The position numbers were made by a program, and so were the translations under genes. From Acidimicrobiales bacterium (GTDB taxonomy: Bacteria > Actinomycetota > Acidimicrobiia > Acidimicrobiales > UBA8592), in the NCBI GenBank assembly GCA_013912105.1, contig JACERY010000007.1, positions 1 to 64,000 of the forward strand: a stretch of 64,000 bases of DNA. The letters run 5' to 3'. This document shows, in pieces, positions 7,702 to 32,408 of the stretch (within the stretch, counting starts at the first letter, position 1; every line of letters starts with the position of its first letter). A model generated the notes under the pieces. It was not told the origin of the DNA. It saw only the letters and a program-made list of their open reading frames with translations, and searched no databases.

Positions 7702-9186
7702 TTACTGCGTTTCTATTTCAAAAGACCCGCTACTATCCACGTCAATTACCCCTCCAATGTGGCTGTCTTGAGAAAAAGCTTGGGTGGTTTCAGGGTCCAA
7801 CGTTGTGACGACTCTTCGGTAATGGTCATCAGACTCGGCTATAACAAAGGCTTTGGGGCCCTGGCTAGTATGCGCAATTGTTGATGAAATAATCCTTAAA
7901 CGACCATTGATATCTGGTTTAATATCAACTGTTTTCATTGCCCTTTTCACTGCAGTTGATACATCTTCATGAAAGAAATCCGATGTATCTGATTTAGCGG
8001 ACAAGGCAAAGAGTCCTTGCTTAGTAAGCATTCCAGAAATTGACGTAACGAGACCATCAGTCTCCTGATCACGTATCTTCTTAGCGACACAAGATATTCC
8101 TTGGATTGTAAAATTATTAAATGGGCCTCCAGCAAAAGTCATTCCACCAGTAACACTTAAGTCATGATTATAAAGTCCGAGATGTTCTGATTGAAGGCGA
8201 ACTGCGATTGGGAAGCAACTATACAACTCAACTATTTCCCTATCTGATGCTGCCTTCCCAGTTAATGATTTGAGCTTCTCATTGATAAAGCGCATCGCTA
8301 TACATGAAGATAAATCTTGCCGCTCTGTCAGTGGCGTAACGTTATTTGATTCAATTATCGCCTTTGGATACACCCATGAATGTCCACTAGAACCGAAAGC
8401 TTTTGCTGTTTCTTCTGTGGTGATTATTAGCGCTGCGGATTGATTCACATTCCACTGTGTTATGTGATTGACGCAATATGGGTCAGCGATAGGTCTTCCC
8501 CAGCCTTGTTCATCTAGGTACTGGCATGCATTTTTCCTCCACGGCGCATTTGCCGCTTCAGATATCTTCGCCATCTCTTTCCATTCCTCATTTATAAGAT
8601 CTATTAGTTGTCCCCGCGTGAGATTATTTTCATGTGCGTATGCGTTTTCAATGAGTGCATATTGATCAGCAGCTCGAATGAGACCTGTATCAATTTCATG
8701 GCGAGAAATAACTAGTTCTTCAGCTCTTACCCATTCAGGTAATACATTCGCAGTAGTTACGTCGCTTGCTGTGCTGGTGGGAATAGCGCCATGAAGTCTT
8801 TTGTCTAATTCTTTTGTTTCTCCTCCAACGATAATCGTGCATTCTGAACGTGCTTCGGCGACATCCTGAATAGCTCTTTTGACCAAGGAACTTTGTAGGA
8901 CCCCAAGATCAAAAAGAACATTTTTTGCTTCTATACCAAATGCTGAAGCGATTGAAGATCCAGGATTATCTATGTTCCAAGTACCTTTCGGTATAAAGAT
9001 CTGGTCAGCCTTGCGCAGAAGTTTTCGGCTACCTGCATCATCAGCCGCATCTTCAACAGCTCTGCACATAAGATCGATGGTACTAATTGGTTCCTGCCCG
9101 GATTCCCATGTGATATTCCCCGTTCCTGCAATTACTATTCTTGAGGCAGGTTTAGTTCTCACACCACTCTTCTTTCTATATAGCAA
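7702..9186 (-). CDS. Thiolase-like / acetyl-CoA acetyltransferase family protein
   Basis: ASRIVIAGTGNITWESGQEPISTIDLMCRAVEDAADDAG, EIVELYSCFPIAVRLQSEHLG, TGGMTFAGGPFNNF: thiolase-superfamily pattern. Confidence 0.83.
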   Translation of the reverse strand: MLYRKKSGVRTKPASRIVIAGTGNITWESGQEPISTIDLMCRAVEDAADDAGSRKLLRKADQIFIPKGTWNIDNPGSSIASAFGIEAKNVLFDLGVLQSSLVKRAIQDVAEARSECTIIVGGETKELDKRLHGAIPTSTASDVTTANVLPEWVRAEELVISRHEIDTGLIRAADQYALIENAYAHENNLTRGQLIDLINEEWKEMAKISEAANAPWRKNACQYLDEQGWGRPIADPYCVNHITQWNVNQSAALIITTEETAKAFGSSGHSWVYPKAIIESNNVTPLTERQDLSSCIAMRFINEKLKSLTGKAASDREIVELYSCFPIAVRLQSEHLGLYNHDLSVTGGMTFAGGPFNNFTIQGISCVAKKIRDQETDGLVTSISGMLTKQGLFALSAKSDTSDFFHEDVSTAVKRAMKTVDIKPDINGRLRIISSTIAHTSQGPKAFVIAESDDHYRRVVTTLDPETTQAFSQDSHIGGVIDVDSSGSFEIETQ

Positions 9187-9300
9187 CGCTTAGGTTGATG
9201 TTTGGAAGATCTTAGTTGCGTTGAATACTTGTTTGTCCTTAATGAGAATAACTTCTATTTCAGTTCCTTGTTTGACGTTATTTTGTGTAAGGCTCATCCA

Positions 9301-10146
9301 ATGAATGAATTGCATTGGGAAAAACAGCGAAACTTAAAAAGGCCCATTCTTATCATCGCATTGAAAGGGTTGTTTGATGCGGCTGAGGCAGCAACGGCTG
9401 GTGTTGATCTTTTAATTGCGAAACATAATGCTTTCCCAATAGCAGAAATAGATCCAGAATCGTTTTTTAATTTTCAAGAAGAACGACCTTTCGTTCGTTT
9501 AGGGGAAGAGGGTAGAGAAATAGAGTGGCCATCTAATCAAATCTGGGGGGCAGAGTGTGAAGATAGCCAGCATGACCTTCTGCTGCTTTCTGGAATAGAG
9601 CCTCATCTTAAATGGCGAACATTTTCTGAAACTTTACGTGAAGTTGCCCAAGAAATGAATGTTGAAATGGTTATAACTATCGGCGCTATGGCTGGAATGG
9701 CCCCTCATACGAGAACACTTGGTGTTGTTGGGAGTGCGTCGGATCCAATTATTGCAGATCGGCTTGGTCTTGGACGTCCAACATACGAAGGTCCAACTGG
9801 TCTGGTAGGAGTTCTTCACGATTATTTAGATAAAGAAGGTATTCCTATCATTTCACTTCGAGTTTCTGTTCCTCACTACGTGCCTGGACCACCTAATCCG
9901 GAAGCAACACGCTCATTACTATCTCGTCTTGAACTTGTAACAGGCGTTGAAACGTTTCATGCTGATTTAGAAAAAGCAGCAAACGAATGGCGAGATCGAA
10001 TACATGCGGCAGTAACAAATGATCCAGAAATGGCTAGTTACGTTGAACAATTAGAGCAACGCGTCGATGAAAGCGAAATTCTTCCATCTGGAGACGACCT
10101 TGCAGCTGAACTCGAAGCTTTTCTAAGAGATAAGCGAGCCGATTAG
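9301..10146 (+). CDS. PAC2 family protein (proteasome-assembly-chaperone-like)
   Basis: RPILIIALKGLFDAAEAAT, DLLLLSGIEPHLKWRTFSETL, GVLHDYLDKEGIPIISLRVSVPHYVPGPPNPEATRSLLSRLE: typical actinobacterial PAC2. Start set to internal ATG 9301. Confidence 0.92.
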   Translation: MNELHWEKQRNLKRPILIIALKGLFDAAEAATAGVDLLIAKHNAFPIAEIDPESFFNFQEERPFVRLGEEGREIEWPSNQIWGAECEDSQHDLLLLSGIEPHLKWRTFSETLREVAQEMNVEMVITIGAMAGMAPHTRTLGVVGSASDPIIADRLGLGRPTYEGPTGLVGVLHDYLDKEGIPIISLRVSVPHYVPGPPNPEATRSLLSRLELVTGVETFHADLEKAANEWRDRIHAAVTNDPEMASYVEQLEQRVDESEILPSGDDLAAELEAFLRDKRAD

Positions 10147-16066: not shown

Positions 16067-16843
16067 ATGGAAAATACAATGGCTCTTACAATAAAAGTCT
16101 GGCGACAAAATGGACCATCTGAAACTGGAAGATTTGAAACATACGAAGTTGACCAGATCAGCCCTGACATGTCTTTTCTAGAAATGTTTGACGTTCTTAA
16201 TGAAAATTTGATTAATGCTGGAGAAGAACCTGTTGAAATCGCAAGCGACTGCCGAGAAGGAATCTGTGGCACCTGCGGATGTATGATCAATGGGAAAGCA
16301 CACGGTCCTGAAAAAGCAACTGCAACTTGTCAACTTCATATGAGAAAGTTCAGTGACGGGGACACAATCATCGTTGAACCATGGCAAGCCGCTTCATTTC
16401 CTGTGATAAAGGACTTGGTTGTTGATCGTTCTCCATTAGATCGCATAATTGAAGCTGGAGGATACATAACAGTTCCTACAGGGTCAGCGCCTGACGCTAA
16501 TTTGATTCCAGTTCCTAAAGATGCCGCTGACACAGCTTTCGATGCTGCAGCATGCATTGGTTGCGGAGCTTGCGTAGCAGCGTGCCCCAACTCTGCCGCT
16601 CAGCTCTTCACATCTGCGAAGATACAACACCTCAATCTACTGCCACAAGGTCAGCCTGAAAGGTGGTCAAGGACTGAGGATATGGTTGAGACAATGGAAG
16701 AGTATTTTGGTTCATGTACAAACCATGGAGAATGCCACGAAGCATGCCCGAAGGAAATTCCTCTAGACTTTATTGCATACACCAACCGAGATTACATAAA
16801 GTCAAAACGGAAGAATAGGAAATTATTGGGACAAATTTCTTAG
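16067..16843 (+). CDS. sdhB: Succinate dehydrogenase iron-sulfur subunit
   Basis: [65 protein letters not shown]. Confidence 0.98.
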
Positions 16844-17409
16844 AACGGAGACTTTTGTTTCAAGCAACTTTCTAGAAGGTCCTTATAGTGTGTTATTGAA
16901 TAGTTGCTAAAGTAAGGATCTTTTGCTTGATCGTCCCATTTCCTCAATGAAACTGCAGCTTTCCAGTACCTATTTCCTTGAAACTCCTCTAGTTCAGTCT
17001 CTGTGAACGGTCCACCTTGTAGCTCTAAACTTCTAACTGAAGCGGGAGAGAGCGTGCTCATGTAGTTAGGGTCTGTTGCGCATAGCCACCGTTTTGCCTC
17101 AACATGAAGAGCGACTGGTTGTACTATAGCGTCAGTATAAAATTCATTTAAATAGTTAGCTCCAAGTACCTCATGAAAGTGATCTCTTGGCGAATGTAGT
17201 TCGTCAATTTTCTGTTCCTGAAGGAGGAGGTGGCCTAAATCGTGTAACAGCGCCGAAAGAATAACTTCTTTCTCCTCTCCTGCTTTTTCAGCAAGATACG
17301 CTGCCTGCACAGCGTGACTCTCTTGAGTGACAACTTCCGTGTATTTCGTTCGTCCATATTTTCCATAAAGTTGGATGAGGTGTTCAACTGGTGATTTTAA
17401 ACTATTCAT
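16840..17409 (-). CDS. phnZ: PhnZ/TmpB-like HD-domain phosphonate oxygenase
   Basis: [12 protein letters not shown] (HD), [61 protein letters not shown]: the PhnZ-type HVxAKRYL / LSxAS..(T/S)LExQGGP / LRxWDxxAK signatures. ATGA overlap with phnE. Confidence 0.82.
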
Positions 17410-19259
17410 GACACAAATTTTCTACGTAGCCAGGATGACAGTAATTCAATTGCATATACCACCACAAAAATGCAGAATATGATTCCACCAAGGGTTTCAA
17501 AATTTAATGTCTTAGCAGCATTGATAGTGAGAAATCCTATTCCCCCGCCTCCAACAATACCGATCACGGTTGAACTTCTTATTGAAACATCGAATAAGTA
17601 AAGCGAGTTCGAAAAAAGAGACGGCGCAACTTGTGGGAATACTCCAGTGACTGACTCCTGAATCCGTGTTGAACCCGTAGAGGTAACACCATCTCTAATA
17701 TTTTGTTTTGCTTCTTCAATAGTGTCGGAAAATAGTTTCACGACAAAACCGAACATTCCGATAGCCATTGCTATTGTCCCTGTTTTAGGACCAGGGCCGA
17801 TAGCAGCAACAAATATAACCGCTAAAACTAATTCTGGAAGGCACCTCACCGACAGGTTAAAAAATCTGGAGACCCTATAAATAAATTTTCCAGGAGCGGT
17901 GTTACTAGCGGCAAGAAAAGCAAACGGTATGGCGAATATCAATGCAATCGTTGTGCTTGCTAACCCAATAGCTATAGTTTCCAGCATGTCGCTAACTATT
18001 CGGTCGGTAAACCATGACCAATCATCTGGAGTTACTCTTCCTAAAAATTCTGGGAATTTACCGCTTCCGGTGAATAGTTCTCCCCATACGGAACTAATAC
18101 CATCGCCTGGTTGAGTTAACGATAAGACAAGTAAGGAGAAAAGACTCAGCCCGACTAAATTAACTTTTACTCTATCTGAGGTCCAAGGTTGGGTGAGTTG
18201 GACTTTAGATTTCTTAAAATGCGGTGAATGGATATTATGTGAATCTTCAACTGAATCTAGTTTTGAGATCTCTGTAATAGTTGGCTGAGGCTTCCTAACA
18301 ATTATATTTGCTAGCTTGGTTCCTATACTATTGCGTTCCAGATGACCTCCTCTCAGCATTGATTGGCTTCTATTGCCACTAAAGAATCGACTACCGAGCA
18401 TTGGTGTTTTCTTTACAGTGTTTTTAGTTGTCCCTAATAAGGTGTGGCGAGTAATGGCTGATAGTAATTCCATGAGAATGACCATCAAGGTGATTAATAA
18501 AGTAACACCGAGCATTTCTTGATATCGAAGGTTGCCTTGGTAACCTCTAAAAATAACTCCGATTCCGCCAGCTCCAACCCATCCGAGAATATTCGCTGCA
18601 CGGAAACAAATTTCAAGGCGATAGAGTCCTACTGCTATAGCAGTAGGGACTATTTGACTCCAGACTCCTGTAATTGTGTCCTGAAACCCGCTAGCACCAG
18701 TTGAAGTAACTCCCTCTCGCGGACCCGAATCAATTTCTTCAGCCGCATCCGTGATCAATTTACCTATCATTCCGATTGAATGTAAACCCAACGCTAAGAT
18801 CCCAGCAAGAGGCCCAATTCCGTATACCCGCACAAAAAAGAGTGCAAAGACTAGTGCCGGGATTGCTCTTGCAAAAACTATTGTTACGCGCGATAAAAAC
18901 CGAATAAACGCTAAGGGCATAACATTCTTTGCTGCAAGGAGCCCTAAAGGTATTCCTAGGATTAAGCCTAAAAAAGTACCAGCAAAGGCCATAAGGAATG
19001 TATCCCAAACAGCTTTCACTACTACATTTAGGTCTTCGCTCGGAATAAATGGAGGCCACATCCGAGCTAAAAGATCTTGCGTTTCAGGCCAACCACGGAA
19101 AATTTCAATTACACCCTGTGGAGTAAGATTTACTTTATTGATTGACCATATAAATGCAGTCAGAAACAAGATAGAAAACGACCACATTTGAACACGTTTC
19201 CGTGTAATAGGTTGAGATATGCTCGTTTCAGGAGTGGTAGTTCTGGAAGTTTCGCTCAA
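17406..19259 (-). CDS. phnE: Phosphonate ABC transporter permease, two PhnE modules fused in one chain
   Basis: Two PhnE-like permease halves, each with a REGVTSTGASGFQDTITGVWSQIVP / RDGVTSTGSTRIQESVTGVFPQVAP EAA-loop and AANILGWVGAGGIGVIF / SSTVIGIVGGGGIGFL. Confidence 0.94.
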   Translation of the reverse strand: MSETSRTTTPETSISQPITRKRVQMWSFSILFLTAFIWSINKVNLTPQGVIEIFRGWPETQDLLARMWPPFIPSEDLNVVVKAVWDTFLMAFAGTFLGLILGIPLGLLAAKNVMPLAFIRFLSRVTIVFARAIPALVFALFFVRVYGIGPLAGILALGLHSIGMIGKLITDAAEEIDSGPREGVTSTGASGFQDTITGVWSQIVPTAIAVGLYRLEICFRAANILGWVGAGGIGVIFRGYQGNLRYQEMLGVTLLITLMVILMELLSAITRHTLLGTTKNTVKKTPMLGSRFFSGNRSQSMLRGGHLERNSIGTKLANIIVRKPQPTITEISKLDSVEDSHNIHSPHFKKSKVQLTQPWTSDRVKVNLVGLSLFSLLVLSLTQPGDGISSVWGELFTGSGKFPEFLGRVTPDDWSWFTDRIVSDMLETIAIGLASTTIALIFAIPFAFLAASNTAPGKFIYRVSRFFNLSVRCLPELVLAVIFVAAIGPGPKTGTIAMAIGMFGFVVKLFSDTIEEAKQNIRDGVTSTGSTRIQESVTGVFPQVAPSLFSNSLYLFDVSIRSSTVIGIVGGGGIGFLTINAAKTLNFETLGGIIFCIFVVVYAIELLSSWLRRKFVS

Positions 19260-19272
19260 TGTAAGTTACTTT

Positions 19273-20145
19273 CTAAACAAGTCCCTCAGAGTATTCAGCA
19301 CGCTTTTCACCGCCAGGGTCAAGTTCACGATAAACACCCATAACGCTCTGTTGATCGATCGAATCATCCACAGGAGTATCAAGAACTACCTTTCCATCCC
19401 TGAGACCTATTAGTCTGTCAGCCCATCCCAATGCGAGATCTACCTGATGAAGACTACATAACACAGTTATATTGTCTTCAATGCAACATTGGACCAGCAA
19501 GTCCATAACCTGTCCAGAAATTTCTGGGTCAAGAGATGCAACTGGTTCGTCGGCTAAGACAATTTTTGGTTTTTGCATCAATGTTCTAGCAATCGCTACT
19601 CGTTGTTGCTGTCCACCCGATAATGTATCCGTACGTTGCCAAGCTCTTTCAGCAAGACCTACCCTTTCTAATTGTTCAATAGCTTCTTTTCTCAATTCTT
19701 TCTTATACATTGAGGCGCCTATCCTCGGCCCCTTCAAACGACCAAGAGTTCCGGTTAATACATTTTCAATGCAGGTCAATCGACCAACAATATTGAATTG
19801 TTGAAAAACGAAACCAACTTCTTTTCTGAGGTTCCTTAAATCTGTTCGGTTGAGATTCGGTACATTCTGCTCAAGGACGGTGACAGAGCCCTCTGAGGGA
19901 AGATGGAGCCCATTTAAATGCCGCAGAAGCGTAGATTTCCCTGACCCAGATAGGCCAATTATAACGAGTAGTTGACCTTCTGGTACAGCAAAAGATACTC
20001 CATCTAATGCACGAACTGCCCCGTTATCAAAGGTTTTTACCAGGTCACATACCTCAACTGCAGTTTTCCCTAACGCCGGGACATGCGCACTGTCCACGAC
20101 GTCAGGGGTTGAAATTGCTTCAACTGCCATGTTTCTTAACCGCAC
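19273..20145 (-). CDS. phnC: Phosphonate ABC transporter ATP-binding protein
   Basis: GLSGSGKSTLLRHLNGL, TDTLSGGQQQRVAIARTLMQKPKIVLADEPVASLDP; adjacent to phnD/phnE. Confidence 0.95.
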   Translation of the reverse strand: MRLRNMAVEAISTPDVVDSAHVPALGKTAVEVCDLVKTFDNGAVRALDGVSFAVPEGQLLVIIGLSGSGKSTLLRHLNGLHLPSEGSVTVLEQNVPNLNRTDLRNLRKEVGFVFQQFNIVGRLTCIENVLTGTLGRLKGPRIGASMYKKELRKEAIEQLERVGLAERAWQRTDTLSGGQQQRVAIARTLMQKPKIVLADEPVASLDPEISGQVMDLLVQCCIEDNITVLCSLHQVDLALGWADRLIGLRDGKVVLDTPVDDSIDQQSVMGVYRELDPGGEKRAEYSEGLV

Positions 20146-21149
20146 TTACTTGCTTTAGTAACTTCACAAACCTGACGGATCCCATCATAGAACGCATCGG
20201 TTTTCGGGACGTATCCCCATGTGTCATCTTCATCAGCGAAGCTGCAGTTGTTATCTTCTAATGTTCCTTCACAAAAGCCATTTTCGATGGCCCATGGAAC
20301 GTTGACGTTCTCGGCAATGACTTCTTTCCACCTTGCAATGAAATCTGCTGGCAAGTCGTTAATAATTGCCATCGGAGCTCCTGAAATTGTTTGACTCTTC
20401 CAAATAATTCGCAGATCTGCATCTTCTGGGTTTACGTTTTCATCTCCAACATCATCGATGACACCTTTGATGTCTCCACTGTTTATGAGTTGGCTTGTGA
20501 TCATGGTGTCGTAGGCGAATCCGGCATCGCATTCACCATTTGCGACAGTGATAGCTGATGCATCATGACCCCCAGCAAAGACAGGGGTAATATCTGTTGA
20601 AGTCTCAGAAGGGTCGAGACCGGCGGATAGCATACCTTCCGATGGGAATAAGAATCCAGAGGTTGATCCAGGGTCAACAAAGCAGACTGTTTTACCAGCT
20701 AATTGTTCAATTGAAGTGATTCCACTATCTGGTTGTGTAACTAGATAACTTTTGTAACCTGGCTCAATCGCAGGGTCTCGAGTCATAACTCCAGCAACAT
20801 CTACATCTGCTCCGTTATTGGTTGCGATCACATAGGAAAATCCACCAAATTGTCCGACATCGATTCGACCAGCAATGATTCCTTCAATAATACCTGCGTA
20901 TTCTGTGGCTTGAAAAAAATCTATTTCTTCAAGTCCATCAATTTGTGCAATCAAAATTGCTCGTGTCGTCTCGTAATCTGCTTCGAGGCTACTAGCGGCT
21001 TCGGCAGGTACTGCTCCAAAAATTATTTTTGATGGCCAGTCATTGTTAGAACTTTCGTCGTCATCTCCACAGGCGACAGTGAGAACACTCATTGTCACAA
21101 GAGCTAGCACAATTGAAAAAATTCTAAAGAATCCTTTTTTCCTTTTCAT
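20136..21149 (-). CDS. phnD: Phosphonate ABC transporter substrate-binding lipoprotein
   Basis: Lipobox VLTVACGDD; IIFGAVPAEAASSLEADYETTRAILIAQI, QFGGFSYVIATNNGADVDVAGVMTRD, GKTVCFVDPGSTSGFLFPSEGMLSAG. Confidence 0.95.
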   Translation of the reverse strand: MKRKKGFFRIFSIVLALVTMSVLTVACGDDDESSNNDWPSKIIFGAVPAEAASSLEADYETTRAILIAQIDGLEEIDFFQATEYAGIIEGIIAGRIDVGQFGGFSYVIATNNGADVDVAGVMTRDPAIEPGYKSYLVTQPDSGITSIEQLAGKTVCFVDPGSTSGFLFPSEGMLSAGLDPSETSTDITPVFAGGHDASAITVANGECDAGFAYDTMITSQLINSGDIKGVIDDVGDENVNPEDADLRIIWKSQTISGAPMAIINDLPADFIARWKEVIAENVNVPWAIENGFCEGTLEDNNCSFADEDDTWGYVPKTDAFYDGIRQVCEVTKASKCG

Positions 21150-21852: not shown

Positions 21853-22851
21853 CTAATTGGAATTCGTCTGATAGGCTCCTGAAATCGCTATAACAACACC
21901 GATGATTGCAAAGTACGAAATAGAATCACCGCGAAACATAACACCTAAAATTGCAGCTTCAATTGGAAAAAGATATGCAACTATTGAGGAGCGGACTGCT
22001 CCTACTCGGCCTGTAAGCTTACTCGACCAGATATAGGCGATGCCGGTTCCACCTGCACCCAAAACAAGACAGGCAGACATTGCTTGTAAAGAAAATGAAC
22101 TTGATAAAGTTCCATAGATTCCTAGAGGAGTTGTCAACAAAGTTGCTAATGTCAAAGCTCGTCTAACCACGGGAATTGAACCGTATTGATTTTGAAGAGG
22201 GCCGGCTAGGTTAAATCCAATCCCATATGAAATAAATGCCAAGAACATGAGACCAACTCCGAATGCGTTTGTGTTGTCGGTAGAAATTTCTGGGCTACTG
22301 ATTAACACGATCCCAATTAAACCGATACAGATTCCTTTGAGTCGCTGGGGTGAAGTGGAGACTTGAAAGAATGCTGCAGCGATCATAACGGTCAAGATCG
22401 GTACTGCGCTGTAGAGCATTCCGGTCATTGAGGAGTTAACCCATTGCTGAGCAATCGGGAACATTGATAACGGAAAAGCCATCCAGGTAAATCCCAGTAG
22501 CATCACTTTTCTCCTATCAGATGCGCGAACCGCTTCGCTGTTACTTGGGAAAATCCATATAGTTAAACATCCGAATAGAACTCTCAACCATGTAATCAAG
22601 CTTGGGTGGAAATCATCCAATGCGATATCTATAAATAGTGGGGAAGCTCCCCAGAGACCAGCCGTTCCGATTATGAGAAACCAGTCATGCTTTTCGAAAG
22701 ATGCTGTTTCTGAATCCAATCTGAGATCACCGTCTATTTTCTCATAGTCAAGTTTACGAATTTGACAATAGCTCAAGTATCTTTTCTGCAAGAGCTTCAC
22801 TCGCTGCACAAACCCCACTCCACCGTTGTGTGATGTCTGTAGTATATTCAA
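21853..22851 (-). CDS. EamA/DMT-family permease
   Basis: About 10 hydrophobic helices; LWGASPLFIDIALDDFHPSLITWLRVLFGCL, AIISGAY-type end. The ORF start overlaps the upstream gene; the true start is probably near 22750 (TTG). Confidence 0.85.
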   Translation of the reverse strand: MNILQTSHNGGVGFVQRVKLLQKRYLSYCQIRKLDYEKIDGDLRLDSETASFEKHDWFLIIGTAGLWGASPLFIDIALDDFHPSLITWLRVLFGCLTIWIFPSNSEAVRASDRRKVMLLGFTWMAFPLSMFPIAQQWVNSSMTGMLYSAVPILTVMIAAAFFQVSTSPQRLKGICIGLIGIVLISSPEISTDNTNAFGVGLMFLAFISYGIGFNLAGPLQNQYGSIPVVRRALTLATLLTTPLGIYGTLSSSFSLQAMSACLVLGAGGTGIAYIWSSKLTGRVGAVRSSIVAYLFPIEAAILGVMFRGDSISYFAIIGVVIAISGAYQTNSN

Positions 22852-23530
22852 ACGGCCTACCGTTAAGATCTACAAGTACTCCTCCTGCAGCTTCAAGAAA
22901 CACTTTTGCAGCGGCAAGGTCAACAATTCGATGAGTGTTCGAACCGGGGTCAAGAGCTGCGTCGAGAGACCCCTCGGCAACAAGTGCGCCTTCAATTGCA
23001 GACGAACCAAGAATTCTTGTTTTGTGGCAGGCTTTTGCGACTTTCAGAAATTTTTCTCCATTACCTTTCGGTCGGATCATTGAAATTGTGCTGGTTGTGA
23101 GTTGTGTTGAGCAACTTGTTTTGTAACTAGTTGATTCACCTCGTTTTGCCCACCATGCCTTATCGCCCTCAAACCAATATGTATATCCTTCTATGAAAGT
23201 AGAATCTTTAACGAGAGCGGCTGTGAATGCGCTAAAGGGAATTCCGGTCGTAGCGTTACCTGTTCCATCAACTGGATCAATTATTAAAGTAACAGATGAT
23301 CCTTTATCTATAAAGCCTTCTTCTTCGCTTAAGATATTGATGTCGAAGGAGTCGACTTTTTCGATCACTGCTGATTCGACTAATTCATCTAACAGTTTAG
23401 TAGGGGTTCCATCTTTACCCATGCGGTGTGTTTCTCGGAGTTTAGAAAGTCCTACATTGTTCTTTGCGTTATGATAAGCGGCAATAGCGGCATCAGCAGC
23501 TTCGGAAATAATCGGCGAAATATTTTTCAT
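22754..23530 (-). CDS. Inositol-monophosphatase family protein in the phn operon
   Basis: ILSEEEGFIDKGSSVTLIIDPVDGTGNATTGIPFSAF (DPVDGT motif) and RIVDLAAAKVFLEAAGGVLVDLNGRPF. Three-base gap to phnM. Confidence 0.9.
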   Translation of the reverse strand: MKNISPIISEAADAAIAAYHNAKNNVGLSKLRETHRMGKDGTPTKLLDELVESAVIEKVDSFDINILSEEEGFIDKGSSVTLIIDPVDGTGNATTGIPFSAFTAALVKDSTFIEGYTYWFEGDKAWWAKRGESTSYKTSCSTQLTTSTISMIRPKGNGEKFLKVAKACHKTRILGSSAIEGALVAEGSLDAALDPGSNTHRIVDLAAAKVFLEAAGGVLVDLNGRPFEYTTDITQRWSGVCAASEALAEKILELLSNS

Positions 23531-23533
23531 CTT

Positions 23534-24724
23534 TTAACTGCGAAATGAGGGTTCGTTGGAGCGAAGAACTTTTACTACTTGAGGCCATCGGCCTTTGCTT
23601 TGAACGATTATCAGATCTTCAGAACAACCAATTCGAAGAGTCCCTTCTTTTTCAAGTCCGATCATGCTAGCTGGACCTTTTGTGATGAGATTGATAGCTT
23701 CAACGAGACTGCATATTTTCATTTCGGCCATGAGAAACGCTGATGCTAACATTGATGAAGGCATATAATCCGAAGCGAGAGCTGTACAAAGGCCTAAGGA
23801 AATTACTTCCCTTGCAGAGACATTTCCACTATGAGAACTGCCCCGTAAGGCATTAGGTGCACCCATTACAACAGCCAAACCATTTTCAGCAGCGTACTGA
23901 GCGGCCTCAATAGTCACAGGAAATTCAGCTATCTTTGCGCCTTCGAGTATTGCATTTCGAACCTCATCACGGTTTTCTAAGTCGTGGGCAATTAGTTTTA
24001 TTTTTTCGTTCTCTACAAAGGGCCGTAGTTTCTTTCTCGTTGCTTCTAATTGGCTGAAAGTTGCTTCAGCTTCTGTGATTTTTTTGTTTACATATTCCTC
24101 TACGGTCATCCCAGGTTCAAGTTCGTGTTTTTCTACTGAAGCTTCAAACTGTTTTCTGTCTCGATATTGTCCTTGTCCCGGTGTATGGTCTTCAAAAGAT
24201 ACCATCCAGTTAGTTTCATGTTTTTCGGAATTGAGGTCCTGAATTAAAGCTTCTACTCCGACTTCATCACGTGCCTCAATGCGATGTAGAACTTTATGTG
24301 TTACCTGTGAGTCAGGATTTGATGCTCTACTTAGGATTACTTTTCGAAGTTCTTTAGCCCCTTCTACAGATCTACCCATCTTAGGGTTGTCTTGATAGCC
24401 GACACCATGAGCTATCGTCGTTATTCCTGCTGCACGAACGCGACTTTCATATGAAGATAGGGCATAGTTGGTGTCAAAACGCACGTTTGGTCGTGGCGAA
24501 ATCTCCTTTTCGAGTCCATCACTATGAGAGTCCACCAAACCAGCCATGACAAAGCAACCGTAGGCATCTATAGCTCCTTCGGGTACTGCACCATTCGTTG
24601 ATATGGATGTAAGAATCCCATCTTCGATGACAATAGTTGCTTCGTCAAGAATTTTATTTTCAAGAATTAGCCTACAGTTTTTTATAGATAATATTTTTGC
24701 TTGGGTCGGGGTTGTTATTGTCAT
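23534..24724 (-). CDS. phnM: Alpha-D-ribose 1-methylphosphonate 5-triphosphate diphosphatase
   Basis: GCFVMAGLVDSHSDGLEKEISPRPNVRFDTNYALSSYESRVRAAGITTIAHG, VSFEDHTPGQGQYRD, LASDYMPSSML: PhnM. Confidence 0.97.
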   Translation of the reverse strand: MTITTPTQAKILSIKNCRLILENKILDEATIVIEDGILTSISTNGAVPEGAIDAYGCFVMAGLVDSHSDGLEKEISPRPNVRFDTNYALSSYESRVRAAGITTIAHGVGYQDNPKMGRSVEGAKELRKVILSRASNPDSQVTHKVLHRIEARDEVGVEALIQDLNSEKHETNWMVSFEDHTPGQGQYRDRKQFEASVEKHELEPGMTVEEYVNKKITEAEATFSQLEATRKKLRPFVENEKIKLIAHDLENRDEVRNAILEGAKIAEFPVTIEAAQYAAENGLAVVMGAPNALRGSSHSGNVSAREVISLGLCTALASDYMPSSMLASAFLMAEMKICSLVEAINLITKGPASMIGLEKEGTLRIGCSEDLIIVQSKGRWPQVVKVLRSNEPSFRS

Positions 24725-25470
24725 GATGCAACACTTTCTAGTGATCGGTTAATTACTTCATCGGGGTGACCTTGGTCGATAACTTTTCCATTGGAGAGAA
24801 CTACAACACGATCGGCCAATCGAAACATGGCATCAAGGTCGTGGAAAACGCTCAATATCGTCGTATTATCTTCGGCTAAATTTTGAATAACTTGTAAGAC
24901 TGCTTCACGGTTTTTCGGATCAAGAGCCGAAACTGGTTCATCAAGAAGCAGAAGAATTGGTGGTGCAACTATTCCTGCTGCTAGATTAACTCTTTGTTTT
25001 TCTCCCCCAGAAAGCAATGTTGGATAGGTGCCCCATAATGATTCATCTATGTTGAGCTTTGTGAGAATAGCTGCTGCCATTTCATCAGCTATTGCTTCAT
25101 CAATTCCCTTTTTGATTGCAGATTTAATAACAATTTCTTTCACACCTCGCCTGGGTTCAGCTTTTAAGAATTGAGAAACATACCCTATTTGGTGTTCCCG
25201 TAGATCTGCTATTTGGTCATCAGTCAAAGTTGTTATTTCATAGCCCGTTCCAATATTGAACTCGATTGAACCGGAATCACTTAAATACGTTCGGTGAATA
25301 CATTTTAAAAGACTTGATTTACCTGCTCCTGATGTTCCAGCTAGTGCGACGTGCTCACCTTCATAAATATCAAGGTCGACTCCATTAAGTCCCTCGATTA
25401 AACGTCCGTCAACTGCATGTAGCGTAAATGATTTGTGTAGGTCGCATATACGAAGAAGTGGTTTTTTCAT
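24721..25470 (-). CDS. phnL: C-P lyase system ABC-type protein PhnL
   Basis: LRICDLHKSFTLHAVDGRLIEGLNGVDLDIYEGEHVALAGTSGAGKSSLLKCIHRTY, TLLSGGEKQRVNLAAGIVAPPILLLLDEPVSALD. Confidence 0.96.
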   Translation of the reverse strand: MKKPLLRICDLHKSFTLHAVDGRLIEGLNGVDLDIYEGEHVALAGTSGAGKSSLLKCIHRTYLSDSGSIEFNIGTGYEITTLTDDQIADLREHQIGYVSQFLKAEPRRGVKEIVIKSAIKKGIDEAIADEMAAAILTKLNIDESLWGTYPTLLSGGEKQRVNLAAGIVAPPILLLLDEPVSALDPKNREAVLQVIQNLAEDNTTILSVFHDLDAMFRLADRVVVLSNGKVIDQGHPDEVINRSLESVAS

Positions 25471-25471
25471 A

Positions 25472-26311
25472 TCAACCCCTTGCCGCAGCTACAAGCTTCT
25501 GACTATAAGGGTGTTGCGGGTCTTCTAGTAATTGATCGGTCAATCCAACTTCTACCGTGCGACCATGATGCATAACCATGCATCGTCTTGTAAGCATTTC
25601 AACTACATTGAAGTCATGGCTGACTACGACAGCTGCGATTCCTGTTTCATCGAGTAGTCCTCTTATGAGATCTAGAACACCTGCAGCAACGGATGCGTCT
25701 AATCCAGTTGTTGGTTCATCAAGTATTAGTACTGGTGGCTTGTTGGCAAGTGCTTTCGCTAATTGTACACGTTGTCTCATCCCTCCAGAAAAGGTCTGGA
25801 CGGGGTCATCCATTCTGTTAAGAGGAACTTCTGTTCGGTGGAGTAACTCGGTTGCTCGATCTCTAATGTCTTTGAAGTTTCTCCATCCAGCAGCCGTTAG
25901 GCGTTCAGCAATGTTACCTCCAGCTGAGATTTTAAGATCTAGCCCTTCGCTTGGGTCTTGATAAACCACTGCTAGCTGATCTATTCGCAGAGATCTTCGG
26001 GTGCTGTCATCCATCTCGAAGATATTTTGCTTTCCTCCTTCTATGCTTACTAATCTAAGATCTCCCTTTGTCGCTTTCTGATCCCCAGCGATGCATCGCA
26101 TAACAGTGGATTTACCAGATCCGGATTCGCCTATAACTCCTAATGCTTCACCCGGAGAGGCATGAAGGCTGACGTCCCAACACCCGACAACTGAGTCGTA
26201 TGTCTCGCTGACGTTAGTTCCGAATGTTGGTCCAGTCTCGTCAGCAGCTGCATGGTTATTTGGTCCGTAGATGCAACCTAGGCCTTCTAGTTGAATTGAC
26301 CCTTTTACCAC
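25472..26311 (-). CDS. phnK: C-P lyase system ABC-type protein PhnK
   Basis: GESGSGKSTVMRCIAGD, DQLAVVYQDPSEGLDLKISAGGNIAERL, TFSGGMRQRVQLAKALANKPPVLILDEPTTGLD. Confidence 0.95.
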   Translation of the reverse strand: MVKGSIQLEGLGCIYGPNNHAAADETGPTFGTNVSETYDSVVGCWDVSLHASPGEALGVIGESGSGKSTVMRCIAGDQKATKGDLRLVSIEGGKQNIFEMDDSTRRSLRIDQLAVVYQDPSEGLDLKISAGGNIAERLTAAGWRNFKDIRDRATELLHRTEVPLNRMDDPVQTFSGGMRQRVQLAKALANKPPVLILDEPTTGLDASVAAGVLDLIRGLLDETGIAAVVVSHDFNVVEMLTRRCMVMHHGRTVEVGLTDQLLEDPQHPYSQKLVAAARG

Positions 26312-27219
26312 AACTCACCCTCCTTAAAGTCTTGATCATTAGCTAAATCAGGGTTCTGCTTGCGATTGCACCAATCTGTATCACTGCACACCCATTGTGA
26401 TGACCCGTTTTGTTGCGGGATCTCGACAAGGTAGCTAGCTTCACCATTATCATTCTTTGTTCCGATCGTTCCGCAGTGTCTACAGACAGCGTTTACTTCT
26501 TCGACCTGAAATGGAACGTCATCAAATGTCAAAGGTTCAACATCTGTATATGGTGGCACGGCATAAATTCTTTTTTCTCGGCCTGCCCCGTATAGGGCAA
26601 GGAAATGTGCTTGATGGAGCTTTGGGACGTCCCATCTTGGTATTGGCGTAGTCGCTATGATGTATCTTCCATCAATTAAACATGGATACCCAGTTGTTTT
26701 CATGATGACACCGTTATGTACGATATCTTCGTACAGACTTACCCAAATTTTTGCGTAGTCTGCTTCAGCGTGCATTCTTCTTAGTTCGTTCATATCACGT
26801 TCCACCTCACGAAGAGGTTCGGGAACAGGTACTTGCAAAACTAATATCTGATTTTCTTGCAACTCATCTTCAGGAACTCTATGACGAGTTTGGATTACGT
26901 TAGCTTTCCTTGCATCGGTTGTGGTCTTAACACCTTCTGAGTTTCTGATAAGTCGTCGTAGGTTAGCTGCGTTTACTCCACCATCTTCTCCTTGGTCATA
27001 AACCTTAACTACAGACTCGTTCCCAACTACTGCAAGAGTAATTTGTAAACCCCCGGATCCCCATCCTCGAGCTACGGGCATTTCTTTAGATCCAAATGGC
27101 ACCTGATAACCAGGAATAGCAACTGCTGTTAGCACTGCACGTCGTATTTCTCGTTTCGTGTGCTCGTCCATTATTTGGTTTCGGTTGCGTTGAACAGTTA
27201 TTACATCTTGGAGTGTCAT
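26305..27219 (-). CDS. phnJ: Alpha-D-ribose 1-methylphosphonate 5-phosphate C-P lyase
   Basis: YAFLDEHTKREIRRA-type start (QIMDEHTKREIRRAVLTAVAIPGYQVPFGSKEMPVARGWGSGGLQIT); CRHC...WVCSDTDWC Cys cluster. Confidence 0.97.
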   Translation of the reverse strand: MTLQDVITVQRNRNQIMDEHTKREIRRAVLTAVAIPGYQVPFGSKEMPVARGWGSGGLQITLAVVGNESVVKVYDQGEDGGVNAANLRRLIRNSEGVKTTTDARKANVIQTRHRVPEDELQENQILVLQVPVPEPLREVERDMNELRRMHAEADYAKIWVSLYEDIVHNGVIMKTTGYPCLIDGRYIIATTPIPRWDVPKLHQAHFLALYGAGREKRIYAVPPYTDVEPLTFDDVPFQVEEVNAVCRHCGTIGTKNDNGEASYLVEIPQQNGSSQWVCSDTDWCNRKQNPDLANDQDFKEGELW

Positions 27220-28382
27220 GACTTTCCCACTTTTTTTTCTAAAGCATGGTGGCTTTTTATAGCTTCGCCTTTTCTATCTCTGTCTAGGATTGCTTTTCTT
27301 GCAGCGATTTTCCGTTCCATCATTGATCGAAATGTGACGTAATGAGGGAGTTTCAAGTGTTCTAAAAACCCTGATGAGTCAAGACCATCAGTCGTCATCA
27401 AAAGTGATTGTTCGAGCCAACTTCCTTCGGGTTCGCGATTCAATGCAACATCTAAATTTGCCATAGCTATTGCTTTTCGCTCGTTATGCCCAAAGCAAAT
27501 CCCATATCCGACGTCAAACCGTCCCCTATCTTCATCAATACCGTCTAGATCCTCGATTGCTTCGACCTCAGTAATTCTGACGTGTCCAATTTTTACAGGT
27601 TCACTTGTATAAGGGTGCAACACGGTAATGGGTAGGCGACCGTGACGAACTTCTCCAAGAGTTACCTCATTTATGTTGTTGTCAGGACCTAGGATATTGC
27701 GGTACCAAAGTTGGACCAAAGCACCTGTTTCAGCGCGAGCCATGGTTGATAGTAAAGATGATCGAGGAGCGCCAGGCCTAGCAGGTGTTCGCGAAATATC
27801 AACTGGTTCGGGGTCTGCATCTGACCTTCGTTCAACAACAGCGTCCATTGCGCGCAATACATCAAGAAGTCGACCTGGTACTCTGGGTTTATCATGTTCA
27901 TTTGTAGTGATTCCAAAGGTCTTTTGTTTGTTGTCATGGTGCTTCGCTGATGCTTCAACTGCGTCAGTTCTCGCTTTATTTTCATCCCACTCTTCTAACA
28001 ACCGTCCGGTATAGTCAAGAGTTTTTCCTAGAAGTTGGGGGCCAGGAGGTTCTCTAAATGCAGGGACAATTCTTCGGAGCACATCTATCTGATTTACATG
28101 AGTAACTTCGGTATATCCGAGTCTGGGCAATGTTGATTTATGAGATCGAAGTAAGTGAGCTGCTTCAATTAGGTCTCCCTCAGCTTGACGGAAGGCAATA
28201 GCTGCAAGCTTTTCGTCCCACAGTCCTCCTTCGCCCATAACACGATCAACTGAATACTGAAGACGTTCGATGATTTGGTCGATTTCTAGCCAGGAGCTAT
28301 TACATTCAACTCGCTTTCTTTGTACTAGTTCCTCTGCTGCCTGAATAGCTTCAAAGCCACCTTTTGCTGCCATGTAGCCCAT
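27216..28382 (-). CDS. phnI: C-P lyase core subunit PhnI
   Basis: MGYMAAKGGFEAIQAAEELVQRKR; DVGYGICFGHNERKAIAMANLDVAL; SSGFLEHLKLPHYVTFRSMMERKIAARK. Confidence 0.97.
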   Translation of the reverse strand: MGYMAAKGGFEAIQAAEELVQRKRVECNSSWLEIDQIIERLQYSVDRVMGEGGLWDEKLAAIAFRQAEGDLIEAAHLLRSHKSTLPRLGYTEVTHVNQIDVLRRIVPAFREPPGPQLLGKTLDYTGRLLEEWDENKARTDAVEASAKHHDNKQKTFGITTNEHDKPRVPGRLLDVLRAMDAVVERRSDADPEPVDISRTPARPGAPRSSLLSTMARAETGALVQLWYRNILGPDNNINEVTLGEVRHGRLPITVLHPYTSEPVKIGHVRITEVEAIEDLDGIDEDRGRFDVGYGICFGHNERKAIAMANLDVALNREPEGSWLEQSLLMTTDGLDSSGFLEHLKLPHYVTFRSMMERKIAARKAILDRDRKGEAIKSHHALEKKVGKS

Positions 28383-28988
28383 TTAGTTGCCTCCATTTTT
28401 GCTTGTAATTCGAGTTGTTCGAGGAATTGATATGACTAAGCCATCTTCACTGAAAAGCCATGTATCAAACCCCTGCGGGTATGGTCCGCTATTCGTTCCC
28501 AATTGGTTTAAGACGTTGAGTGACATACCCGTTATTTGTATATCTCGGCTTCCATTGATACCGGGTCCCTGAAACTGTAGGCTCACAGAGTTTTCGGAAT
28601 TATCTGTCTGCGCGTTAAATCTGGTTACATTAAGAGCTACTTTTGCTCCTAGTTCGGGTGCTAGTGCTGTCCCTGTCCTAACATTTGAGATTCTTTCACT
28701 ATTTGATTGATCAAGTACGACAATATCTGCTTCAGTAAGTGCTTTAGGAATTGCCCCAGAAGCATCGAAAACGAGTCTTTGATGATCGATATCTGATGTT
28801 CCGATATGTACAGTAGTGTCAACATCGCTTAGTACGAGTGGAAGCCATAGGTTCAGTGGCAGTGATTTAGAGATGACCTCGTTTGGAAGAGGTAAGACTT
28901 TTCCTGGTTCTGAAATAGTCCGAAGTAGAACATCAAATACTCTTTGTGCTAGTTCCTCCGTAATTCGAGCATCAATGTAAGTCGTCAT
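28383..28988 (-). CDS. phnH: C-P lyase core subunit PhnH
   Basis: Position between phnG and phnI; LPLNLWLPLVLSDVDTTVHI, LQFQGPGINGSRDIQITGM, NSGPYPQGFDTWLFSEDGLVISIPRTTRI. Confidence 0.93.
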   Translation of the reverse strand: MTTYIDARITEELAQRVFDVLLRTISEPGKVLPLPNEVISKSLPLNLWLPLVLSDVDTTVHIGTSDIDHQRLVFDASGAIPKALTEADIVVLDQSNSERISNVRTGTALAPELGAKVALNVTRFNAQTDNSENSVSLQFQGPGINGSRDIQITGMSLNVLNQLGTNSGPYPQGFDTWLFSEDGLVISIPRTTRITSKNGGN

Positions 28989-29416
28989 TCTATTTCCTCA
29001 AAGTTGACAATGGTTGCTGACAGTTCTTGCCATTCTGCTGCTCTTTGACTTTGGATCTTCTGCTTAGTTTCTCTAAGAAGTGTTTCGACATCAGTTGAAT
29101 AAGGACCGTCAGCTTCAATCTCAGCATCGCAAATAGCAGCAGCTAAGGAGGCGACGGGGTTATCTCCCATAAGGAGCGCCCACCCTTGTATTCCTCTGTG
29201 AATAACTTCAGTTTTTGTTGCTAAGACTTCTCCTAAATGAAATCTCTTTTCTTCAATCGGCTCTCTTAGGGTGAGAACTACTGTTCCTACTTGCGGACCG
29301 GTTATGATCTCAGGATTATCAGTACCTTCCAGACATAAGTTACCTATTGCAGTAAGCAGGTCGGGGTCTGTAGCTGCTAGAAGTTCAGATCTTTCACCTC
29401 TTGATAATCTGTTCAT
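28985..29416 (-). CDS. phnG: C-P lyase core subunit PhnG
   Basis: EITGPQVGTVVLTLREPIEEKRFHLGEVLATKTEVIHRGIQGWALLMGDNPVASLAAAICDAE. Confidence 0.94.
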   Translation of the reverse strand: MNRLSRGERSELLAATDPDLLTAIGNLCLEGTDNPEIITGPQVGTVVLTLREPIEEKRFHLGEVLATKTEVIHRGIQGWALLMGDNPVASLAAAICDAEIEADGPYSTDVETLLRETKQKIQSQRAAEWQELSATIVNFEEIE

Positions 29417-30138
29417 AGTTCTCCAATACTCTTTTGGGTTTCTCCAAATTCGAGATAAACATGAAATGCATCTGCTCTCATGAATGATTCTGAGTACTCA
29501 ACCGGTTTCCGTAATTTTGCGCAACCATTGACCGACTTGATGTGCCAAACAGGGGGCTGCCCGATAAGTTGTAATACTTTTGCTACCTCTATTGGTGCTG
29601 GGATGAGATCAACCCGAGACCAATTACGAACGATTCTGTATCCGAGATGTTGTTGGAGAAAATACGTTAATGACTCCCCATTATTCATAGATTCTTCTAG
29701 ATTTTTTGAGCTTTCGGTGAGCCAATGTTCTTGGTACGTGGTTACTTCATTGTTCACGAGTCCCATACGAGAAATTTTTGTTACGTGTTTAGATTCTGAA
29801 ATGATTAGTTTTTTTGCTACTGCTTCTGGGGGGCTTCCCCTAGTTATTTCAGCCACTTTTCGTGTTGCTACATGTCCAGCATCTCTTACAAGTTGTGACC
29901 AGCTCGGAGCTTCCCCGTCTTTAATGGGGTACGGTAACCGTAGCGCTACTCTTGTTCCTGATCCTCTTTCTCGTCGAACAAGGTGCCGAACTTCAAGTTC
30001 CCGTAGTGCCTCGCGAGCTGTAACTCTGCTGACATCGTGATCATCCATTAATTCATGCTCAGTGGGTAATAACTCACCGAATTTTAGTGAATTTATCTTC
30101 TCGCCGAGTTTGTTTGCGAGATGGAGATATTTTGGCAT
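29413..30138 (-). CDS. phnF: GntR/HutC-family regulator PhnF
   Basis: GntR wHTH LPTEHELMDDHDVSRVTAREALRELEVRHLVRRERGSGTRV plus UTRA-like C-terminus; first gene of the phn operon. Confidence 0.93.
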   Translation of the reverse strand: MPKYLHLANKLGEKINSLKFGELLPTEHELMDDHDVSRVTAREALRELEVRHLVRRERGSGTRVALRLPYPIKDGEAPSWSQLVRDAGHVATRKVAEITRGSPPEAVAKKLIISESKHVTKISRMGLVNNEVTTYQEHWLTESSKNLEESMNNGESLTYFLQQHLGYRIVRNWSRVDLIPAPIEVAKVLQLIGQPPVWHIKSVNGCAKLRKPVEYSESFMRADAFHVYLEFGETQKSIGEL

Positions 30139-30146
30139 ATCTCATA

Positions 30147-30170
30147 CATAACAAATGAAAAGTTGTTATG
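30147..30170. promoter_or_regulatory. Candidate PhnF operator (8-bp perfect inverted repeat)
   Basis: CATAACAA-ATGAAAAG-TTGTTATG, 9 bp upstream of the phnF start codon. Confidence 0.55.
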
Positions 30171-30205
30171 ACATAGTATTTAGAAACTGTTCACCTATTA
30201 TTCTA

Positions 30206-30254
30206 AAGAATTTACCCTTCGGCAATCTATCGTTAATTTGAAGGGTAAATTCTT
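30206..30254. promoter_or_regulatory. 15-bp perfect inverted repeat in the phnF/2H divergent intergenic region
   Basis: AAGAATTTACCCTTC (30206-30220), 19-bp spacer, GAAGGGTAAATTCTT (30240-30254). Confidence 0.75.
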
Positions 30255-30266
30255 GGAATGTATACA
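30238..30266 (+). promoter_or_regulatory. Sigma70-like promoter for the 2H-phosphoesterase gene
   Basis: TTGAAG (30238-30243), 17-bp spacer, TATACA (30261-30266); ATG at 30284 leaves a very short leader. Confidence 0.55.
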
Positions 30267-30283
30267 CTTTTCATACCATAAAA

Positions 30284-30838
30284 ATGTTTAGGCGGGATAT
30301 GCATAATACTGGTGGCGCGAATCTTAATGAGTTAATTCTTTACGCCACGCCGACTGGTGACTTGCTTGCATGGTGCAATGATTACTTTCATATTGCTGAC
30401 CAATTGGGAGGTACTGAGGCGCAAAAATATCCTCCGCATTGCTCTATGACTGGTTTCTTTCATCGGTCAACCTCAAGATTAAATGAAGCAGTTTGGGCTC
30501 TTGGTAATTTAGATGTGAAGTCGGTTAATATCCCTATTGACTCATTGAATATTTCTCTTGATAAGCCGAGTTGGTTAGGAATTGAAATAGGGTCTGAAAG
30601 TTTAAGTTCTATAATTTCTTTGTTTTCGTCTAATTATAAAAATTTAAGCGATGAAGATCCGATACGTGTCAAAGAGTGGTTACATTTAAGTTTGGCGTAT
30701 GGGGTTGAAGATATAGGTCCTTTTAAAGAGGCATTAATTGACATGGATGCTTTACCTTCTGAACCATCTTGGGAGATTTCGCTTTGGCAACGCCATCGTC
30801 ATAATCTTTGGAAGAGATTAAATTTTGAAACCGACTGA
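30284..30838 (+). CDS. 2H-phosphoesterase-superfamily-like protein
   Basis: Two HxS motifs in suitable contexts: YPPHCSMTGFF and EWLHLSLAYGV, about 82 residues apart, as in 2H cyclic phosphodiesterases. Confidence 0.72.
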   Translation: MFRRDMHNTGGANLNELILYATPTGDLLAWCNDYFHIADQLGGTEAQKYPPHCSMTGFFHRSTSRLNEAVWALGNLDVKSVNIPIDSLNISLDKPSWLGIEIGSESLSSIISLFSSNYKNLSDEDPIRVKEWLHLSLAYGVEDIGPFKEALIDMDALPSEPSWEISLWQRHRHNLWKRLNFETD

Positions 30839-32408
30839 GACTACGCCTAGTGCTAAAAATCTTCCTGTGAGCATCGAGCGTCGTTACGACATGGATGCTT
30901 TACGTGGCATAGCCATGTCCTTAGGTATTGTTCTTCACGGAACTTTATCATTTATTCCAAACGCATGGCCGGCAGAGGATATAAGGGCTTTGTCGGACGG
31001 TGAAGGATTCTACGATGAGATTTTGTCAGCTATCCATGGATTTAGAATGCCATTATTCTTTCTGCTAAGCGGCTTTTTTACTTCTATGGTCTGGAGAAGA
31101 CGCGGAGCATTTTCGCTTATTCGGCAAAGATTTAAACGAATTGTCCTACCGTTAATTTTGGGCTGTTTATTAATTGTCCCTTCCGTAGATTGGGCATCAG
31201 AGAAAGCTCTTAATGATAGATATGACGATCGCGACCAATTTTATTCCCAAGATTTATGGGGCCCTATTATTGAGGGGCAAGATAATGTGATTAAGAGGAT
31301 ATTGAGTTATGGGGTGTCACCAAATATTAGGGGGGATGATAATTGGACACCTTTGCACATAGCCATCCTTCTGAATGAGAAACTAGCAGTTCAATACCTT
31401 TTAGCTTCTGGTGCTGACGCAACAGCTAAAACAGATCTTGGGATCACTCCTATCCAATTCGCAATTTGGAATGGAGATCAAGATATCGCTAATTGGGTGA
31501 TTGCAGCGGGCGGGAGCATCGACTTAGAACCCGTAAAGAATTGGGCATCAGTTGATAGTTGGGGTCAAAGACCAGATGAACTTAATCAAGCTATTAGTAG
31601 CATTAGATCAGATGATCCATTTTCTCTTCATCATCTTTGGTTTCTTTGGTTTTTGTGTTGGTTTGTGTTCGCCTACATACTAGCCATAGGAGTTAGAAAT
31701 ATAAGGAATAGGATTTTCCCATCTTTATCTAAGTTCTCAAGTTTAAGACGTGGTGCCATTTCAGCCATCTATTTAATAGGTCTCCTAGGTGTCAGCTTCC
31801 TTTGTCAACTTCAAATGTCCGATAAAGGTAACTATCGTTCATTTGGACCGGATACATCAACTAGCTTTAGAATCCCCGCACATTTGTTTCTCTATTATCT
31901 TTCATTCTTCGCTTTTGGAGCAGTTTTATTCTCCGCTACACGATCGAAAGGTAAACTATTAATAGATGACGCTTACAAAATCTGGATGATTCCATTTCCA
32001 GCATTACTTGTCTTATTTCCTTTTGCTAAACAATTAACAGGCGATTTGGGACAAAATTGGGCAGTAATATCAGTCTTTCAAATTTCATATACTTGGATAA
32101 TGACTTTAGGGTTAATAGGCCTTTCCCAAAGATTCCTTTCAAAGAAAAGAGAGAGGGTTCGATGGTTCTCGGATTCTGCCTATTGGCTCTATCTAGCCCA
32201 CATTACAGTTCTCATACTTGCCCAATCATGGATTCGCAACGTTGAATTGCCAGGCCCAATAAAACTGACCGGTTTATGTTTTGTTACCACTGTTGTTCTT
32301 TTGGTCTCTTATCAGTTATTCGTTCGTTATACGCCTATCGGTTGGCTACTAAATGGAAAACGAAAAAAACTTCGGTATCAGAAAGATGCTTCTTTAGCTG
32401 TAAATTAG
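30825..32408 (+). CDS. Acyltransferase-3 family membrane protein with an internal ankyrin-repeat insertion
   Basis: RYDMDALRGIAMSLGIVLHGTLSF and HGFRMPLFFLLSGFF are acyltransferase-3 motifs. Between TM segments: DNWTPLHIAILLNEKLAVQYLLASGADATAKTDLGITPIQFAIWNGDQDIANWVIAAGGS is ankyrin-like. Confidence 0.85.
   Translation: MKPTETTPSAKNLPVSIERRYDMDALRGIAMSLGIVLHGTLSFIPNAWPAEDIRALSDGEGFYDEILSAIHGFRMPLFFLLSGFFTSMVWRRRGAFSLIRQRFKRIVLPLILGCLLIVPSVDWASEKALNDRYDDRDQFYSQDLWGPIIEGQDNVIKRILSYGVSPNIRGDDNWTPLHIAILLNEKLAVQYLLASGADATAKTDLGITPIQFAIWNGDQDIANWVIAAGGSIDLEPVKNWASVDSWGQRPDELNQAISSIRSDDPFSLHHLWFLWFLCWFVFAYILAIGVRNIRNRIFPSLSKFSSLRRGAISAIYLIGLLGVSFLCQLQMSDKGNYRSFGPDTSTSFRIPAHLFLYYLSFFAFGAVLFSATRSKGKLLIDDAYKIWMIPFPALLVLFPFAKQLTGDLGQNWAVISVFQISYTWIMTLGLIGLSQRFLSKKRERVRWFSDSAYWLYLAHITVLILAQSWIRNVELPGPIKLTGLCFVTTVVLLVSYQLFVRYTPIGWLLNGKRKKLRYQKDASLAVN

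Follow-up and report, generated by a model that had tools for sequence, protein, structure and literature searches.

The phn cluster and the gene divergent from phnF

The window analysed here, a stretch of 64,000 nucleotides from an Acidimicrobiales genome, carries a cluster of phn genes on the minus strand. It is headed by the gene of a phnF-like GntR/UTRA regulator (29413–30138; PF00392 and PF07702), which scored 77.9 bits against TIGR02325 (equivalog cut-off 156.8) and is followed by the operon phnG-H-I-J-K-L-M. Most of these genes were recognized by profile matches: phnG (28985–29416; PF06754), phnH (28383–28988; PF05845, with TIGR03292 above cut-off), the C–P lyase gene phnJ (26305–27219; PF06007, E 2.2e-116), phnL (24721–25470; TIGR02324 as the best match), and phnM (23534–24724; TIGR02318/NF011990). 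Assignment of phnI (27216–28382) was based on its location between phnH and phnJ, which is the place of phnI in related clusters, and that of phnK (25472–26311) on gene order and about 70–80% identity to related phnK. No second phnM was seen in the window. The operon is followed by a gene for an IMPase/FBPase-like phosphatase (22754–23530; PF00459; 164 bits to NF009321, below cut-off) and a gene for an EamA transporter.

Further along the same strand are phnD (20136–21149; TIGR03431/TIGR01098), phnC (19273–20145; conserved order and 66–76% identity to related phnC), and phnE (17406–19259). The product of the latter, 617 aa in length, is a tandem fusion of two permease domains and is matched by TIGR01097 in two stretches. 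The phnD-C-E array ends with the gene of an HD-domain oxygenase-like protein (Phn-HD; 16840–17409; 201 bits to TIGR03276, cut-off 214.6), which is close to the phosphonate oxygenases PhnZ/TmpB. Since this HD gene recurs in other phn clusters that contain the 2H gene described below, these bacteria may combine C–P lyase with an oxidative route.

On the plus strand, divergent from phnF, an open reading frame at 30284–30838 encodes a protein of 184 aa, a candidate phosphoribosyl cyclic phosphodiesterase of the 2H fold. The start codons of the two genes are 145 nt apart, the boundary of phnF being at 30138. Translation of the 2H gene may actually begin with the ATG in position 30299 (residue 6), judging from AGGCGGG just upstream and from homologs that begin near residue 15. 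The first catalytic motif, YPPHCSMTGFF (30428–30460; H52xS54), includes PHCSMT at residues 51–56, with the codon of H52 at 30437–30439. The second one, RVKEWLHLSLAY (30665–30700; R128, K130, H134xS136), includes LHLSLAY at residues 133–139, with the codon of H134 at 30683–30685. Two HxS motifs in a single sequence prove little on their own, and single-sequence searches returned no Pfam, NCBIfam, PHROG or PDB sequence match for the 184-aa protein, the NCBIfam model of PhnP (TIGR03307) included. The 2H gene is followed by a gene for an acyltransferase_3 membrane protein (30825–32408) with ankyrin repeats inserted mid-protein.

The control region that separates phnF from the 2H gene (30139–30283) contains a perfect 15-bp inverted repeat, with the arms AAGAATTTACCCTTC (30206–30220) and GAAGGGTAAATTCTT (30240–30254) located 19 nt apart, and a HutC-type site of the form GTATACAC, found as an exact GTNTANAC at 30260–30267. 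Also, a palindrome is present at 30147–30170. These elements possibly include a putative PhnF or Pho operator. The inverted repeat was not shared by the related loci in which it was sought.

An unnamed family of 2H phosphoesterases

Full or nearly full homologs of the 2H protein were detected at E < 1e-24 in eight of 397 genomes of the same order, the window's own included; two other matches (G200 and G231), which were short and contained stops, were left out. Scanning of GTDB contigs with the alignment of these eight members revealed 78 loci in Acidimicrobiia, Cyanobacteria, Chloroflexota, and a few other groups, while no relative was found in the viral contigs and plasmids searched. The family alignment, A2, comprises 63 members; locus L061, which has an in-frame stop, was excluded from it. 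The paired HxS motifs, the length of 184 aa and the divergent orientation to phnF, all given in the initial annotation, were confirmed, and both histidines proved to be invariant in 63 of 63 members. The full set of invariant residues includes I18, Y20, A21, P23, H52, G57, F58, R128, K130, H134, A138, and W163. Positions 54 and 136 are occupied by S or T in every one of the 63 sequences.

Individually, 47 of the 63 members, the window protein not among them, matched PF13563 (2_5_RNA_ligase2). The best of these matches had an E value of 2.9e-9 and scored 37.6 bits (cut-off 27), and two of the matches listed were above the curated cut-off. Matches of family members to LigT_PEase were weak, and the LigT equivalog model TIGR02258 was matched by two of the 63 members, with a best E value of 0.021. 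Profile searches of PDB with the family alignments A1 and A2 gave chance matches only.

The AlphaFold2 model obtained with the family alignment had a pLDDT of 91.6 and a pTM of 0.85. All eight Foldseek matches in PDB at E ≤ 0.001 were 2H proteins, the top ones with a probability of 1.00. CPDase from Arabidopsis (1fsi) ranked first and was followed by YjcG, LigT, and Usb1. The 2H fold suggested in the initial annotation is thus borne out by the model. Namely, the predicted bilobal fold, the two HxS/T motifs about 80 residues apart, and the family-level match to PF13563 are the features of the 2H superfamily, and the proteins in A2 constitute an unnamed family of 2H phosphoesterases.

CPDase is the Appr>p cyclic phosphodiesterase, whose substrate is ADP-ribose 1'',2''-cyclic phosphate. 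The ribose 1,2-cyclic phosphate of this compound is the same group as that made by PhnJ. CPDase provides the closest solved fold and also has two HxS/T motifs, but the identity is only 9–12% and the enzyme belongs to the plant pathway for a tRNA-splicing by-product. LigT, YjcG, and the 2_5_RNA_ligase2 proteins are similar to the present family at the level of the superfamily; their substrates, however, are RNA ends and they have no phn context.

Replacement of PhnP by a 2H enzyme has already been proposed for DUF1045 (RcsF, TIGR03223, PF06299). These proteins adjoin phnM in clusters without PhnP and have been proposed to act as a 2H phosphodiesterase of 5-phosphoribosyl 1,2-cyclic phosphate (PRcP) in place of PhnP (PMC3840354, PMC8235418, PMC10574752); rcsF is contained in 16 phn operons that lack phnP (PMC10574752). 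RcsF was taken to be DUF1045 because the order phnM-DUF1045-phnN in Ruegeria agrees with that given for rcsF (PMC5649143). Nine phn-linked DUF1045 proteins were gathered from alphaproteobacterial plasmids and aligned. In the hhalign comparison of this alignment with the 2H family, both His motifs were in register and the probability was 4%. PF06299 was absent among the matches listed for the 63 members, while reference DUF1045 controls matched at 1e-61; TIGR03223 was matched by one of the 63 members (E 0.012). The motif context is YGFHATLKAPF/FRFHMTLTG in DUF1045 versus YMPHCTLTGFF/RLKDWLHLSLAY in the 2H family. DUF1045 proteins are about 230 aa long, proteobacterial, and encoded in clusters that keep PhnN, whereas members of the present family have 170–190 aa and occur in other phyla, in clusters without PhnN. 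Thus, DUF1045 and the present family are alike in residing in phn clusters that lack PhnP, but HMM and profile comparison agree with the initial view that the window protein is not a member of DUF1045. The similarity between the two profiles would be compatible with either separate recruitment or ancient divergence.

Linkage to phn genes and absence of PhnP, PhnN and DUF1045

Homologs were collected by sequence alone, without reference to phn genes, and their neighbourhoods were then searched by tblastn with the phn proteins of the window. At 14 of the 15 loci from Acidimicrobiia, 6 of the 9 from Chloroflexota, and 19 of the 50 from cyanobacteria, one or more of phnG, H, I, J or M were located within 10 kb of the 2H gene. 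With 39 of 75 loci overall, in three phyla, the 2H gene is a component of phn clusters, and the association expected from the initial annotation is strong. Most commonly, the 2H gene comes immediately after phnM or a second phnM; in cyanobacteria, the HD gene is often next. This adjacency recurs across phyla, and the phn linkage as such is seen in differing arrangements. A second, divergent phnM often directly precedes the 2H gene (L063, at 8934–9980, L088, L094, L097, and L100).

Among the genomes of the same order, the 2H gene was present in 6 of 12 with PhnJ versus 2 of 385 without it (Fisher p = 4.8e-9), counts that refer to sampled genomes, of which some are incomplete (the window's own is 89.8% complete) and related ones are not independent. 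The six PhnJ-containing Acidimicrobiia genomes without the 2H gene (L047–L052) also had no DUF1045 and no PhnP over cut-off. A divergent 2H copy in these genomes was considered and rejected, as the A2 profile gave only matches of E 0.07 inside very long open frames. These genomes must therefore have another solution, or the step can be accomplished in a different way.

For 39 genomes the 2H locus had no PhnJ nearby; PhnJ was encoded elsewhere in 20 of them and was absent from 19. The phnM-2H pair occurs in genomes without PhnJ at L077 (ESFC-1), L069 (Hyella), L061, L064, and L065, and in ESFC-1 it is kept alongside a remnant of PhnI with a stop codon. The chromosome of Planktothrix rubescens has the 2H gene and no PhnJ. 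At L103, L104, L096, L098, and L116 from the Planktothrix/Oscillatoriales clade, the 2H gene is intact and the genomes contain neither PhnJ nor PhnI; at L103 the 2H gene is followed by the gene of a HAD-type phosphatase. This set forms one derived clade inside the phn-linked sequences, and the other PhnJ-less members are interleaved with the latter. Loss of C–P lyase explains the 2H genomes without PhnJ, but a second role of the 2H protein is possible.

PhnP was absent from the window's own genome, and none scored over cut-off among 14 genomes. The search for PhnN in 19 genomes also revealed nothing over cut-off; the sub-threshold matches are probably guanylate kinases. DUF1045 was not found in the 14 genomes, a search in which no control genome matched; the neighbourhood search had working controls. 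With PhnP and PhnN of E. coli, PhnN of Paracoccus, and the nine DUF1045 proteins as queries, it detected none of the three in any 2H-bearing neighbourhood searched, while the control loci matched. Since PhnN is missing along with PhnP, the end of the pathway must differ too. As the window's genome also lacks PhnN, the IMPase-like phosphatase may be a substitute for it. The phosphatase gene is conserved in related clusters, namely in 6 of 15 Acidimicrobiia neighbourhoods, but was found in none of the cyanobacterial and Chloroflexota neighbourhoods searched, and therefore cannot be the general answer to the lack of PhnN.

Proposed function in the C–P lyase pathway

Taken together, these data make it likely that the 2H protein hydrolyses PRcP in the C–P lyase pathway, as PhnP does. 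PhnP (TIGR03307), the 5-phosphoribosyl 1,2-cyclic phosphate phosphodiesterase of E. coli, performs the same proposed reaction at the same pathway position. It is a metal-dependent enzyme of the metallo-beta-lactamase fold and is unrelated to the 2H fold. One substitute for PhnP is known from an actinobacterium: PhnPP of Eggerthella, a PHP-type cyclic phosphate dihydrolase, hydrolyses both ester bonds. The idea of a replacement for PhnP, put forward in the initial annotation, thus gains support from the fold, the phn linkage, and the absence of PhnP from the genome and the searched clusters, while the reaction itself is deduced from these features.

By analogy with CPDase, H52 and H134, aided by S54 and S136, would bind the cyclic phosphate and serve as acid and base acting on phosphate and water. 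Ring opening in this manner would be metal-free and would yield ribose 1,5-bisphosphate; ribose 2,5-bisphosphate is a possible alternative product. The conserved residues R128 and K130 may serve to bind the 5-phosphate. The phosphatase encoded at 22754–23530 may then take off the 1-phosphate, giving ribose 5-phosphate and Pi.

An alternative is a phn-regulon enzyme that acts on another cyclic or phosphorylated ribose, such as non- or 5-triphosphorylated ribosyl 1,2-cyclic phosphate, and is paired with a second PhnM-like hydrolase, while PRcP is opened by something else. The second, divergent phnM that immediately precedes the 2H gene at many loci of Acidimicrobiia and cyanobacteria and the persistence of the phnM-2H pair without PhnJ or PhnI are in line with such a function. 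The 2H gene, however, is also found in clusters where one phnM was seen, the window's own included, the searched clusters contain no other candidate for PRcP hydrolysis, and the interrupted PhnI of ESFC-1 points to loss of C–P lyase rather than to a separate function. We therefore regard this explanation as unlikely. The Planktothrix clade, which keeps the gene without C–P lyase, would also be compatible with a housekeeping RNA 2',3'-cyclic phosphodiesterase of the LigT/ThpR type whose proximity to phn genes is due to chance or operon drift, as would the weak matches to LigT_PEase and PF13563 and the presence of LigT among the structural matches. Recurrence of the phn linkage in three phyla and in differing arrangements, the correlation with PhnJ, and the near-complete lack of TIGR02258 matches make this very improbable.

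The possibility that the protein is a distant DUF1045/RcsF, i.e. the known substitute for PhnP, draws on the common superfamily, the same neighbours (phnM and phnF), the co-registering His motifs, and the single TIGR03223 match. It is highly doubtful given the hhalign value, the differing motifs, the absence of PF06299 among the matches listed, and the presence of PhnN in DUF1045 clusters but not in those with the 2H gene. The divergent orientation to phnF, finally, could suggest that the protein is a regulator or a scaffold whose 2H fold has degenerated, but a non-catalytic role has no need of the catalytic histidines and paired S/T residues retained in all 63 members, and we give this idea hardly any credence.

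Beyond hydrolysis of PRcP by the window protein, we tentatively suggest, with reservations, that recruitment to C–P lyase in Actinomycetota, Cyanobacteria, and Chloroflexota involved a 2H family distinct from DUF1045. The resulting branch of the pathway would end without PhnP and PhnN: the 2H enzyme would open PRcP, a phosphatase would free Pi, and phosphorus would leave as phosphate and ribose 5-phosphate, not as PRPP.

Growth of cyanobacteria such as Trichodesmium on methylphosphonate releases methane in oxic water. Trichodesmium uses this compound, reportedly without PhnN, PhnO, and PhnP (PMC10574752), and the phn cluster of Nodularia contains two unnamed genes (PMC3610870, PMC5955973), which lie beside phnM and were annotated as no more than 'hypothetical protein in phn cluster' in one of the papers (PMC3610870). 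Both reports fit the 2H family, of which the Nodularia genes are putative members. The literature search found no paper that describes this family. What is new, therefore, is not a 2H enzyme in place of PhnP but the present family, the phyla in which it occurs, and the missing PhnN. The co-absence of PhnN was unexpected, and the host range of the family is wider than that of DUF1045. For the ring-opening step that is missing in several phyla, the 2H family offers a concrete candidate.
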